From positions 1-51,399 of IMG/VR virus record IMGVR_UViG_3300017950_000010: DNA of 51,399 bases; one strand, given 5' to 3'. The stretch is from a virus. The notes beneath the pieces were generated by a model. It made no database searches. It had not been told where the DNA came from and saw nothing but the letters and a program-made list of their open reading frames with translations. This document shows positions 191 through 48,965 of this stretch, one piece after another. The first letter of the stretch is position 1, and every line of letters starts with the position of its first letter. The translations under genes were made by a program, and so were the position numbers.

Positions 191-210
191 TATAAGTTCC
201 TTTCTAAAAT

Positions 211-239
211 TTTATAACTAGTTTTGTCGTTAAATGCAA
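211..239 (-). promoter_or_regulatory. Sigma70-type early promoter, leftward
   Basis: On the minus strand TTGCAT (234-239) and TATAAA (211-216) are separated by exactly 17 bp, close to the TTGACA/TATAAT consensus. Transcription would begin near 204, immediately before the ribosome site of the 47-aa gene. This is the best host-type promoter seen in the window. It would drive the small early genes and then, across the missing segment, DNA polymerase through RNA polymerase. Start-site mapping would confirm it. Confidence 0.65.
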
Positions 240-493
240 GTACTTTTTAAGCTTGTCTTTTAGGGTCGCCCTCTAGAGTTTTCCCCACAGAATTCTCGTA
301 ATTCCCCTTGAAAACCCCTTTTTAAAGGAGAATACTACCGAGGTTCTCCAGAGGAGCCCCAGGAGGACCCCTCTGAGGATGCTCTATAGTTTCCCTCTAG
401 GGAATTTTGCGGTCCTCTCTGGGCTATAATACGGCTTCCAAGTTAGACTCGAAGGGTTCTTAGGGAATTTCCTTTAGAGATTTTTATTTTATA
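240..493 (-). other. Non-coding structured region with repeated CTCTAGAG-type motifs
   Basis: No credible gene is visible on either strand. The stretch is rich in short inverted repeats and G/C runs, unlike its surroundings. Read on the minus strand it holds related motifs: GGGAAACTATAGAGC (381-395) and GGGGAAAACTCTAGAG (271-286). Both are preceded by an AATTC element. The ACTATAGAG core resembles the TATAG core of T7/SP6-type promoters, so these may be phage polymerase promoters. Early-region stem-loops or a replication origin are other possibilities. I cannot choose between them from sequence alone. Confidence 0.4.
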
Positions 494-971: not shown

Positions 972-1046
972 GAAGTCTGTCTCATCAGGCGTAGGAGACA
1001 ATACCTACACGACTCCCCGAAGGGAGTTTCGACTTTAGAAGTCTTC
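972..1046 (-). ncRNA. Hammerhead ribozyme, type II arrangement (downstream of SSB)
   Basis: On the minus strand the full hammerhead core is present in order. Stem II 5' half is GTC (1033-1031), followed by GAAA (1030-1027). Stem III is A-C-TCCC, a TTCG loop, and GGGA-G-T (1027-1012). The cleavage base is C (1011). Stem I is GTGTAGG/CCTACGC (1010-1004 with 995-989), followed by CTGATGA (988-982). Stem II 3' half is GAC (981-979), with an outer GAAG/CTTC pairing at 1043-1046 and 972-975. Every invariant core base (CUGANGA, GAAA, A-U, H17) matches. Predicted cleavage is between 1011 and 1010. The 5' stem II strand overlaps the SSB stop codon. Confidence 0.85.
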
Positions 1047-1484
1047 AGAAGCCTCGATGCTATCGAAATCAACTGATTCGGTTGGTTCATACTTAACTAA
1101 ATCAATCACTTGAACAGCGGAGAGACGAGTAATAATTTGTTCTCCACGAGGATAAGTGAATACCTTAACGGAACCTTTAGAACCGTTACCGATACACTTA
1201 GCATCACCGTACTCAGCACGGAAGTCTGCCTTATCAGCGGTGACTACTTCGACCTTAACGGCTTTACCCTTAGCACCCTTAGCGTAACGCTTAAAATTAA
1301 TCGCTACACCACCCTCAACTTCACGGACCTTACCGAAAGCTTCAAGTTCTTTACGACGTTTCTTAGGTACTACTACCTGAACATCGTACACTGGATCACC
1401 ACCGAAAGGGGCGTGAGGTGTATCGAGGAAAGCGTAGTTCAAAGTTACGTCGCGGATGATAGATGTTTTGATTGTGTTTGTCAT
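1035..1484 (-). CDS. Single-stranded DNA-binding protein, T7 gp2.5-like
   Basis: 149 aa. The N-terminal part looks like an OB-fold of the phage SSB type: a beta-rich start (MTNTIKTSIIRDVTLNYAFL), then a DPVYDVQVVVPKKRR strand with basic residues and a lysine-rich loop (KRYAKGAKGKAVKVEVV). The C-terminus is acidic and ends in phenylalanine (DFDSIEASEDF), the hallmark tail by which gp2.5-type SSBs contact polymerase and helicase. It would coat ssDNA at the fork and recruit the replisome. GGAGA precedes the ATG. The gene is bracketed by two hammerhead ribozymes, so its mRNA may be excised as a separate message. The family assignment rests on fold-like pattern and tail, not on a search. Confidence 0.75.
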   Translation of the reverse strand: MTNTIKTSIIRDVTLNYAFLDTPHAPFGGDPVYDVQVVVPKKRRKELEAFGKVREVEGGVAINFKRYAKGAKGKAVKVEVVTADKADFRAEYGDAKCIGNGSKGSVKVFTYPRGEQIITRLSAVQVIDLVKYEPTESVDFDSIEASEDF

Positions 1485-1511
1485 AATAAATCTCCATTAG
1501 TTTATGACTAT

Positions 1512-1583
1512 GAGGATCTGCCTCGTCAGTGCAGAGAGATCATTCTCTACAGACGCCCTAAGGCGTTTCGGCTTGGTTAATCC
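1512..1583 (-). ncRNA. Hammerhead ribozyme, type II arrangement (upstream of SSB)
   Basis: On the minus strand: stem II 5' GCC (1572-1570) and GAAA (1569-1566). Stem III is A-C-GCC, loop TTAG, GGC-G-T (1566-1553). The cleavage base is C (1552). Stem I is TGTAGAG/CTCTGCA (1551-1545 with 1536-1530), followed by CTGACGA (1529-1523). Stem II 3' is GGC (1522-1520), with outer GGAT/ATCC pairing (1583-1580 with 1517-1514). All invariant hammerhead bases are present, and paired bases differ from the copy at 972-1046 with pairing preserved. Predicted cleavage lies between 1552 and 1551. The element overlaps the stop codon of the 32-aa gene and precedes the SSB start by about 30 nt. Confidence 0.85.
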
Positions 1584-1675: not shown

Positions 1676-1680
1676 AGTAG

Positions 1681-1872
1681 TTCTCCTTTCAAGAGAGTCC
1701 AAGCGAGCAAGTCGCAACAAAGAAGTAAGGGGGGTTCGAAATCAGAATAGGGTACTTAAAATAACATCTATACTTTCTTAGTCTCTCTTAAAGCTACCCC
1801 CCTAAGTTTTCTACGATTTCGCCTAGAATTCTATAAGTCCCTATAAGAAACTTTTATTAAAAGGAGAGGCCC
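1681..1872. promoter_or_regulatory. Divergent intergenic control region
   Basis: This gap separates the leftward replication operon from the rightward structural genes and should hold promoters for both. Rightward, CTATAAG occurs twice exactly 10 bp apart (1831-1837 and 1841-1847), just upstream of the first structural-side gene. That suggests a promoter or operator read on one face of the helix. Complementary runs AGGGGGGT (near 1725) and ACCCCCCT (near 1797) could form a long-range stem. On the minus strand AGTATAGATG (around 1770-1780) is another TATAG-like core. I see no strong sigma70 promoter here. Confidence 0.4.
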
Positions 1873-2626: not shown

Positions 2627-4261
2627 ATGAAGAACAAGAGGACACTTGAGCTTCTTAAAGAGAAAGCTAAACGGGACGCCCTCAAGGTGTACGAAGGGGA
2701 CTTCGAAAAATTTTCTGCGGATAACATTAAAATCCTCACCAAAGATTCCTCCCAAGGTTTTGTCCCCTTCCTCTTTAACGAACCCCAACGGGTAATCAAT
2801 GAAGCCATTGATAAACAAATAGAGGAAACTGGTCGCGTACGCGTCATCATCCTCAAAGCGCGGCAGCAAGGCATATCTACCTATTGCGCTGCGCGGGTAT
2901 TCTGGAAGACTTACTTTACAGACTATTCCAAGTCGGTAGTGATGGCTCACGACAGTGCTACTTCGGATGCACTATTTAGTATGAGTCGAAACATTATTGA
3001 TAATATGCCCCCCGACTTAAAACCTACTCTCCAAAAGTCTAACGCTAAAGAAATCTTATTTGAAGAGAATAAAAGCGGTTACCGTCTATACACTGCTGGT
3101 TCGCCAGAAGCTGGACGAGGAACTACCCCTACCATTGCCCACCTTTCCGAGGTTGGTTTCTGGACTCACGACGAGAAAATTCTTGCGGGACTCTTTCAAG
3201 GGATCTCCCAAGCTGAAGGTACTGAGGTAATCTTAGAATCAACGGCTAACGGGGCTTCAGGAGAATTCTGGCGTCTCTTCCAAGGAGCGGCTAACGGGGA
3301 GAATGAGTATCTCGCAGTTTTCATTCCTTGGTTTGCAACTGAGGAATATCGACGCGACGCCCCTTCGGGGTTTGAGAGAACCGTAGAAGAAGATGAATTA
3401 GCTGAGAAGTACGATTTAGATGATGAACAATTATATTGGCGTCGCCTAAAGATTGCGGAAGGCGGTGAGAATAAGTTTCGGCAGGAGTACCCAGCTACGG
3501 CTGAGGAAGCATTTATTGTTTCGGGTAACACAGTATTCAACCAAGAGAAACTTAATGATCTCATAGCTACAGAAGCTGAAGCATTCAGAGAATTCAATCC
3601 GATGACGGGCGAATTTGTAGAAGCTAAAGAAGGCTCCCTAGAAATCTGGCAGTACCCTCAATTCGATGTACCCTTCATTATTGCAGCTGACGTAGCCCAA
3701 GGTGTAGGGAAAGATTATTCTTGCGCAGTAGTTATGAACTCCAATAGGGAAGTTGTAGCTATGTACCGAAATAACAGAGTAGACCCCACTGAATTTGGGG
3801 AGATTCTTTTTTATTTAGGTCGCTACTTCAATAATGCTTTACTATGTGTCGAATCGAATAGTATTGGTTTAGCTACGCTATTAAGGCTAGACCAAATGAG
3901 ATATGTCAACTTATACTACCAAGCTAGGATAGCTGATCTTTCTTCTGCGGAAGGTATTCGACCTGGATTCAAAACTACTATGTCAAGCAAACCGCAGATT
4001 ATTGGCTTACTCCAAAATGCGGTGAACGAAGATGATATACGTATTCCTTCAAAAACAATTATTAAGGAACTCAAAACTTATATATCCAGAGATTCTGGAA
4101 AGATGGAAGCCATGGCTGGTTGTAACGATGATACTGTTATGGCTTGCGCTATGGGTTTAGAAGTTTTGAGGACCCACGGAAACAAACTTACAAACGATAG
4201 AGTGTCATGGAGAGACCGCATAGGCGGTGCTATTATAAATGACGATACCAACTGGTTATAG
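2627..4261 (+). CDS. Terminase large subunit
   Basis: 544 aa. The N-terminal ATPase has a Walker-A-like loop in the variant form KARQQGIST (about residues 84-92), preceded by a VIIL strand. The C-terminal nuclease has an RNase H-type acidic triad: FIIAADVAQGVGKDYS (first Asp), CVESNSIG (Glu), and CNDDTVMA (Asp-Asp). These mark the motor that pumps DNA into proheads and cuts concatemers. The length is typical for the family. The start has only a weak purine-rich site. It is placed before the candidate small subunit and far from the portal, an unusual order since the small subunit normally precedes the large one. Confidence 0.92.
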   Translation: MKNKRTLELLKEKAKRDALKVYEGDFEKFSADNIKILTKDSSQGFVPFLFNEPQRVINEAIDKQIEETGRVRVIILKARQQGISTYCAARVFWKTYFTDYSKSVVMAHDSATSDALFSMSRNIIDNMPPDLKPTLQKSNAKEILFEENKSGYRLYTAGSPEAGRGTTPTIAHLSEVGFWTHDEKILAGLFQGISQAEGTEVILESTANGASGEFWRLFQGAANGENEYLAVFIPWFATEEYRRDAPSGFERTVEEDELAEKYDLDDEQLYWRRLKIAEGGENKFRQEYPATAEEAFIVSGNTVFNQEKLNDLIATEAEAFREFNPMTGEFVEAKEGSLEIWQYPQFDVPFIIAADVAQGVGKDYSCAVVMNSNREVVAMYRNNRVDPTEFGEILFYLGRYFNNALLCVESNSIGLATLLRLDQMRYVNLYYQARIADLSSAEGIRPGFKTTMSSKPQIIGLLQNAVNEDDIRIPSKTIIKELKTYISRDSGKMEAMAGCNDDTVMACAMGLEVLRTHGNKLTNDRVSWRDRIGGAIINDDTNWL

Positions 4262-48179: not shown

Positions 48180-48312
48180 CTTCTTCTAAAACCTTTCTTA
48201 GTACAGATAAAAAACCTTCAGCTACAAGCATCTCAAGTTCTTGACCAGTAGCTTTTAAGGTAACAATAGCGGAGCCATCGTTCTCTTCAATTACTTCTGT
48301 AATCTCTATCAT
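48154..48312 (-). CDS. Small hypothetical protein between endonuclease and primase (52 aa)
   Basis: ATG 48312 overlaps the GIY-YIG gene stop (ATGA), and AAGAGGTGG precedes it. The product starts MIEITEVIEENDGSAIVTLK and continues with a helix (QELEMLVAEGFLSVLRKVLE). It is acidic, soluble and ends inside the start of the primase gene (26-nt overlap). Coupling on both sides supports expression. It may be a replisome accessory. No family is recognised. Confidence 0.6.
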   Translation of the reverse strand: MIEITEVIEENDGSAIVTLKATGQELEMLVAEGFLSVLRKVLEEDVSGTIQD

Positions 48313-48965
48313 GTCCACCTCTTAGCGTTAACAATACGTTCATGTCGTTCTTTATCAAAGCCTAATCCAAGATGAGAAGCGCGAATACGTTTCTCCGCTT
48401 GTTTATTAGCGTAATCATCTCGGAATAAGGCGTCCCGAAGATATATCTCTCGCATCTCATAAGCATTAAGTTGTCCTGGTGTTGGGAGGCTATATAGGAT
48501 ACGGCCTTCAACATCATCAATGTTTAACTCTGAGAAGTCTCCTGAGCCTGTATATTGTTTCCAATCAGGCTGGGAGAACTTCTTAGAGCCTACGTAGATA
48601 CGACCAGTAGTTTTATCTTTAAGTTCATAAACAAAACCGATATGATGAGGGTCTACTAGTTCTTTATTAGGTAGCTTCCAGTGACCGTAATCACCTTCAT
48701 TAATCTCATCGACTATATAGTCATCCTTCTGATATGTTTCAAATGCTACATACCATCGGCGTCCATCGCGGGTACAAAGGGTTAACGGCCCTTCCCATCC
48801 ACGTTTTAATTGGAGAGACTTATATAAACTCTCCTTACACCAGAGAACCCCTTCCGAAGAAGACAACTTACGATCGCCCCCTTTCGGTTGCGGCGCTGCT
48901 GTAATCTTTAAGCGGTCATACCTGATGAATGTGTAATCACCCATTTCAAATGTCCTAGATGTCAT
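48309..48965 (-). CDS. GIY-YIG-type endonuclease (218 aa)
   Basis: The C-terminal half has the GIY-YIG core: GFVYELKDKTTGRIYVGSKK, then QYTGSGDF, a catalytic-type Glu in AYEMREIYLRD and a conserved Asn in DDYANKQ. The N-terminal 110 residues form a separate domain of unknown type, rich in aromatic and basic residues. It sits in the replication operon where T7 carries its endonuclease I, so it may resolve branched DNA or degrade host DNA, by inference. It overlaps the exonuclease gene by 11 nt. It could also be a domesticated homing enzyme. Confidence 0.7.
   Translation of the reverse strand: MTSRTFEMGDYTFIRYDRLKITAAPQPKGGDRKLSSSEGVLWCKESLYKSLQLKRGWEGPLTLCTRDGRRWYVAFETYQKDDYIVDEINEGDYGHWKLPNKELVDPHHIGFVYELKDKTTGRIYVGSKKFSQPDWKQYTGSGDFSELNIDDVEGRILYSLPTPGQLNAYEMREIYLRDALFRDDYANKQAEKRIRASHLGLGFDKERHERIVNAKRWT

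Follow-up and report, generated by a model that had tools for sequence, protein, structure and literature searches.

Two type II hammerhead ribozymes around an SSB gene

The window, by which we mean the whole 51,399-base virus record analysed here, carries on its minus strand a gene (1035–1484) for a 149-aa gp2.5-like ssDNA-binding protein (SSB) whose tail ends in EDF. The protein matched PHROG 112, the gp2.5-like SSB family (E 3.2e-10). Its sequence profile had no match in the PDB and fold comparison was needed: Foldseek returned T7 gp2.5 (1je5, E 5.8e-6) and the SSB of phage Enc34 as the best matches of the AlphaFold2 model (mean pLDDT 80). Family profile, gp2.5-type fold and an acidic tail with a terminal aromatic residue were all found.

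On the same strand, SSB is preceded by a cistron for a predicted membrane microprotein of 32 aa with an SD (1577–1675; conserved in the related contig L001 at 3307–3405) and followed by ORF129 (562–951), an open reading frame for a 129-aa protein that had no PHROG or Pfam match and for which a search for further relatives returned only the three already known. The leftward unit and the terminase side run in opposite directions from about 1700–1860, and leftward transcription presumably begins in this divergent intergenic region (1676–1860, minus strand). The string CTTATAGGGACTTATA at 1832–1847 (minus) within it has the look of a T7-type promoter core and is conserved in L001, L002 and L004; the window holds one exact copy of the string, and with 3 mismatches the count was no higher than chance. 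A sigma70-like TTGCAT-17-TATAAA at about 205–240 (minus), identical in L001 and ahead of the next gene set, is likely a separate promoter after ORF129. The intergenic region at 245–485 (minus) is rich in short palindromes such as CTCTAGAG, and its stability was not clearly higher than that of shuffles (z −1.3). A tRNA remnant in the leader (TTCGAACCCC) was rejected, as ARAGORN finds none. The same strand encodes DNA polymerase, primase-helicase and a T7-like RNA polymerase at the far end of the record, in the order found in Roseobacter phage CRP-7, and a GIY-YIG (SegE-like) endonuclease gene (48309–48965, minus) stands amid the replication genes.

Two minus-strand elements flanking SSB, H1 upstream (1512–1573) and H2 downstream (971–1034), matched the type II hammerhead ribozyme family RF02276 (Hammerhead_II) with 44.6 and 42.3 bits, both exceeding its gathering score of 37 bits, and a search against all of Rfam gave E-values of 5.6e-6 and 2.2e-5 for the two. 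H2 was missed under fast search filters and was above the cut-off in the other searches; H1 and H2 were the only type II hammerheads that the RF02276 search found in the record. Both contain the invariant type II core (CUGANGA ... GAAA ... UH), as CUGACGA/GAAA/GUC in H1 and CUGAUGA/GAAA/GUC in H2. On reading, stems I–III are intact, with stem II open and stems I and III closed (stem III of H2 is CUCCC-UUCG-GGGAG). A pseudoknot between loop I and the 3′ tail, which covaries among relatives, has 5 bp in H1 (GAUCU/AGAUC, tail at about 1515–1521) and 4 bp in H2. Minimum-energy folds of the two contained stems I and III and left stem II without its expected pairing, in a folding model that cannot draw the pseudoknot. 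Fold, core, cleavage site and pseudoknot are shared with Hammerhead_II and nothing essential differs, making both elements members of the family.

The order along the transcript is microprotein–stop–H1–SD–SSB–stop–H2–SD–ORF129. The microprotein stop codon lies 3 nt ahead of H1, the SSB stop codon TAA directly adjoins the start of H2, and each hammerhead is followed by a short leader with an SD and then the next gene (SSB or ORF129). The GUC triplets end at 1552 and 1011, which places the predicted cleavages at 1552|1551 in H1 and 1011|1010 in H2, with SSB as the sole gene between them. By hammerhead chemistry the excised RNA (1011–1551, minus) would be 541 nt long, with a 5′-OH at 1551 and a 2′,3′-cyclic phosphate at 1011, and the predicted products would carry a stem I hairpin at the 5′ end and a stem III hairpin at the 3′ end. 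The original prediction is upheld in these points: two conserved ribozymes bound exactly one cistron, the GUC-derived positions give exactly the ends proposed for the piece, and the hairpins fall where it put them. It had also supposed that SSB has no promoter or terminator at its ends, in agreement with a scan around the locus that gave no more promoter-like sites than expected and no terminator-like site.

The ribozymes are thus placed to excise a monocistronic SSB RNA, and we infer its excision in the cell and a stabilisation of the message. Cleavage of H2 may be partial. At 1030–1045 (minus), the SSB codons Asp-Phe-stop make a hairpin, GACUU-CUA-AAGUC, which offers the H2 stem II strand a rival pairing and would compete with the ribozyme, and a ribosome at the SSB stop would cover H2. 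Through this stop-codon hairpin, cleavage could possibly be coupled to translation termination.

Conservation of the ribozyme fold among relatives

Three IMG/VR contigs, L001–L003, encode SSBs 82–92% identical to that of the window and contain three hammerheads each (one of the nine below the cut-off). H2 is conserved in all three, and H1 in these and in L004, a separate contig record that shares a 4,133-nt identical stretch with the window and has the same H1 junction. The slot between hammerheads a and b of these relatives (L001 3409–3976, L002 3603–3979, L003 3415–3977) has a variable gene content: gene X (137 aa) in L001 and L003, an unrelated 78-aa gene in L002 and none in the window.

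A structure alignment of 13 hammerheads (11 distinct sequences) revealed an intact core in every copy and pairing in 97.3% of the structure cells. Compensated changes occurred in 11 of the 21 pairs, including all seven of stem I, and the 11 distinct sequences held 43 double-changed base-pair cells, a number that none of 500 shuffles reached. The loop I/tail pseudoknot varied in step among the aligned copies (GAUCU/AGAUC, GAAC/GUUC, GUCU/AGAC). Given that stem I and the pseudoknot changed in this compensatory way, the hammerheads are, on comparative sequence evidence, under selection as folded RNA. The Rfam E-values, the orthologous copies in relatives and the excess of double-changed pairs over all shuffles exclude a chance origin of H1 and H2.

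Among 50,697 named phage records, the SSB search found one relative only, CRP-7 (L008, MK613349), the closest cultured relative identified. Its hammerhead at 570–636 (50.1 bits) lies elsewhere than beside the matching SSB gene, upstream of a second SSB-like gene, gp02. The 3′ part of that hammerhead overlaps the annotated start of gp02 (619–1116), whose real start is likely 658. The gp02 product looks like a second gp2.5-like SSB (PHROG 112, E 0.0019), and a different membrane microprotein (about 50 aa) occupies the same place ahead of the CRP-7 hammerhead. Prophage relatives were sought in genome contigs and none was found. More distant SSB relatives came from 50 records, most of which may be fragments; 48 had no type II hammerhead, and in the other two it lay about 7 kb from the SSB gene.

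Hammerhead series and homology breakpoints

A pattern scan of viral contigs yielded at least 120 stretches, and a covariance model built for this survey identified 162 hammerheads in 93 loci. In unrelated phage contigs, as many as eight or nine hammerheads followed one another in series, spaced mostly 160–1700 nt apart, and two same-strand hammerheads bounding one gene, as in such series, were found in the window phage. Across 68 phage contigs, a stop codon stood directly before 103 of 137 hammerheads (8% at random positions), a start with an SD followed within 40 nt in 107 (13%), and both were present in 78 (1.5%). A hammerhead's own tail could pair with its loop I over at least 4 bp in 143 of 150 cases, as against a mean of 87 and a maximum of 104 for shuffled tails. 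At L094 5046–5185 (minus), two hammerheads directly adjoin in tandem.

In one respect the original prediction is not supported as worded: it had read the pair as a way of giving a single gene, SSB, its own stability. Because a second gene is flanked alike in L001–L003, hammerheads are absent from most distant SSB relatives and the stop/SD context is common, H1 and H2 are, as judged from sequence context, two links of a common phage arrangement and not an SSB-specific device.

Hammerheads were also observed here for the first time to coincide with breakpoints of homology between gene cassettes. Upstream of H1, the window is 93% identical to the hammerhead a side of L001 and 50% to the b side; downstream it is 99% identical to the b side and 47% to the a side. 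Within H1, the stem III loop is of type a, and from stem I on most distinguishing bases are of type b. By this comparison the window looks like the product of a crossover within hammerheads a and b that removed gene X, the reverse event, insertion of gene X in the relatives, being possible too. In an unrelated high-GC clade, a single hammerhead in L103, L087 and L094 corresponds in L091 to two that enclose a 258-nt cassette, and the left and right identities of L091 to L103 and L087 follow the same pattern as those of the window to L001. A hammerhead identical over 68 nt is found in two related phages, L084 (5022–5088, minus) and L100 (8339–8405, plus), between unrelated neighbour genes. Hammerheads coincided with 11 of 62 and 41 of 124 ends of blastn matches while covering 3.8% and 7.1% of the loci; this enrichment is suggestive, the counts being inflated by short paralogous matches and by the fact that phage breakpoints generally favour gene boundaries.

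The left half of a hammerhead (stem II strand and stem III) would form the 3′ end of the upstream gene. The right half (stem I, core and pseudoknot tail) would serve the downstream gene as its 5′ leader, and the two halves would be joined across the cut by only about 3 bp of stem II. Through recombination inside hammerheads, an entire gene could therefore be gained, lost or replaced with a functional ribozyme left in place, and such recombination would be the cause of the breakpoints. Because each half belongs to one neighbour gene and no more than a few stem II pairs bridge the cut, we tentatively suggest, as a possibility that we hold below even, that type II hammerheads serve as gene-exchange joints as well as RNA-cutting sites and that ribozyme-punctuated operons have been selected partly for evolvability. 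Alternatively, hammerheads may mark gene boundaries rather than cause exchange, as breakpoints also occur at ordinary phage gene boundaries. Neither Perreault et al. 2011 (PMC3088659) nor the open-licence literature searched contained the exchange-joint reading.

Probable ribozyme punctuation of the phage mRNA

From their presence and position, the selection on their structure and the homology breakpoints, we consider it likely that H1 and H2 are active self-cleaving punctuation between the cistrons of a polycistronic mRNA, in a type II layout that also makes cassettes exchangeable. A long leftward transcript starting around 1700–1860 would read through microprotein, H1, SSB, H2 and ORF129, and each hammerhead would fold once its 3′ half had been transcribed and then cut the chain in vivo. 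Both ends of each cistron would thereby be fixed: the 5′ end as a 5′-OH directly at the stem I hairpin, with the SD downstream, and the 3′ end as the stem III hairpin bearing a cyclic phosphate. By analogy with engineered ribozyme insulators, the translation and decay of each gene would become independent of its neighbours. Judging from the sequences, the phage mRNA probably cuts itself into one-gene pieces.

In phage T7, RNase III processing of the early mRNA yields discrete hairpin-ended mRNAs from one long phage transcript; this route requires a host enzyme and leaves 5′-phosphate and 3′-OH ends. The outcome predicted here is alike in its discrete hairpin-ended mRNAs, but the RNA would cut itself and leave 5′-OH and cyclic phosphate ends.

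The idea that flanking hammerheads yield single-gene phage mRNAs is not new: Perreault et al. described hammerheads flanking single prophage genes in 2011 and proposed such mRNAs, with examples at ardA in Agrobacterium tumefaciens, Clostridium scindens and Azorhizobium caulinodans (PMC3088659). In that study, cleavage was observed in vitro for tandem phage-associated hammerheads and in E. coli for one triple arrangement (PMC3088659). Those prophage clusters share with the window closely spaced hammerheads, of type II (and others), that surround a single gene or a short block, whereas the phage here is related to CRP-7 and has a T7-like RNA polymerase, the flanked gene is SSB, and breakpoints at hammerheads are absent from the discussion in that paper (PMC3088659). 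Theta ribozymes of gut phages are likewise small ribozymes that process phage transcripts, but they have an HDV-like fold and lie beside tRNA genes, not between protein cistrons (PMC10879173). RiboJ-type insulators place a hammerhead between upstream RNA and the RBS, which leaves a 5′ hairpin and a defined leader (PMC6206723); they are engineered and stand as a single copy after a promoter, whereas the ribozymes of the window are natural, lie between cistrons and would also provide a matching 3′ end.

Active hammerheads might instead mainly lower or time expression, acting as a regulator and not a stabiliser, if the cut started decay of the flanking RNA or if ribosomes at the abutting stop gated cleavage. 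Stop codons do adjoin the hammerheads, at this locus as in the majority of other phage examples, and the SSB stop-codon hairpin overlaps the H2 stem II strand. We nevertheless regard this as unlikely: unrelated genes share the stop-adjacent placement, a better fit to general punctuation than to gene-specific control, and engineered hammerhead insulators raise rather than lower transcript and protein levels, including expression of the gene behind them (PMC6206723). By analogy, this insulator effect is the best available hint of the effect on SSB.

Less probable still is that the hammerheads are neutral hitch-hikers, tolerated spacers of no use to the phage that ride with exchanged genes. Such passengers would fit the lack of hammerheads in most distant relatives that carry this SSB family, and also the identical hammerhead between unrelated genes in L084 and L100, which suggests movement by recombination; the compensated changes across all seven stem I pairs and the pseudoknot, together with the intact cores and the strict stop/hammerhead/SD position, point to selection for both folded RNA and place. 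Closure of the excised RNA into a circular SSB message, by the ribozyme or a host RtcB-type ligase, is very improbable. In its favour, the RNA would end in a 5′-OH and a cyclic phosphate, and joining the left half of H2 to the right half of H1 preserves three stem II pairs (GUC/GGC, one G-U); against it, Perreault et al. sought circular or spliced tandem-hammerhead products and found none (PMC3088659), and nothing in the present evidence requires a circular message.

If, as we favour, the ribozymes punctuate the mRNA and cut in infected cells, they would provide an enzyme-free route from a long transcript to mRNAs that hold one gene each and have defined ends, as a natural equivalent of engineered ribozyme insulators. 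The role of hammerheads in phages has been a standing question since 2011, and the locus offers a compact test bed for it: the role of its one gene is known, it has two ribozymes where relatives have three, and a cassette has been naturally lost (or gained). The breakpoints further suggest a testable reason why the type II form might be preferred.
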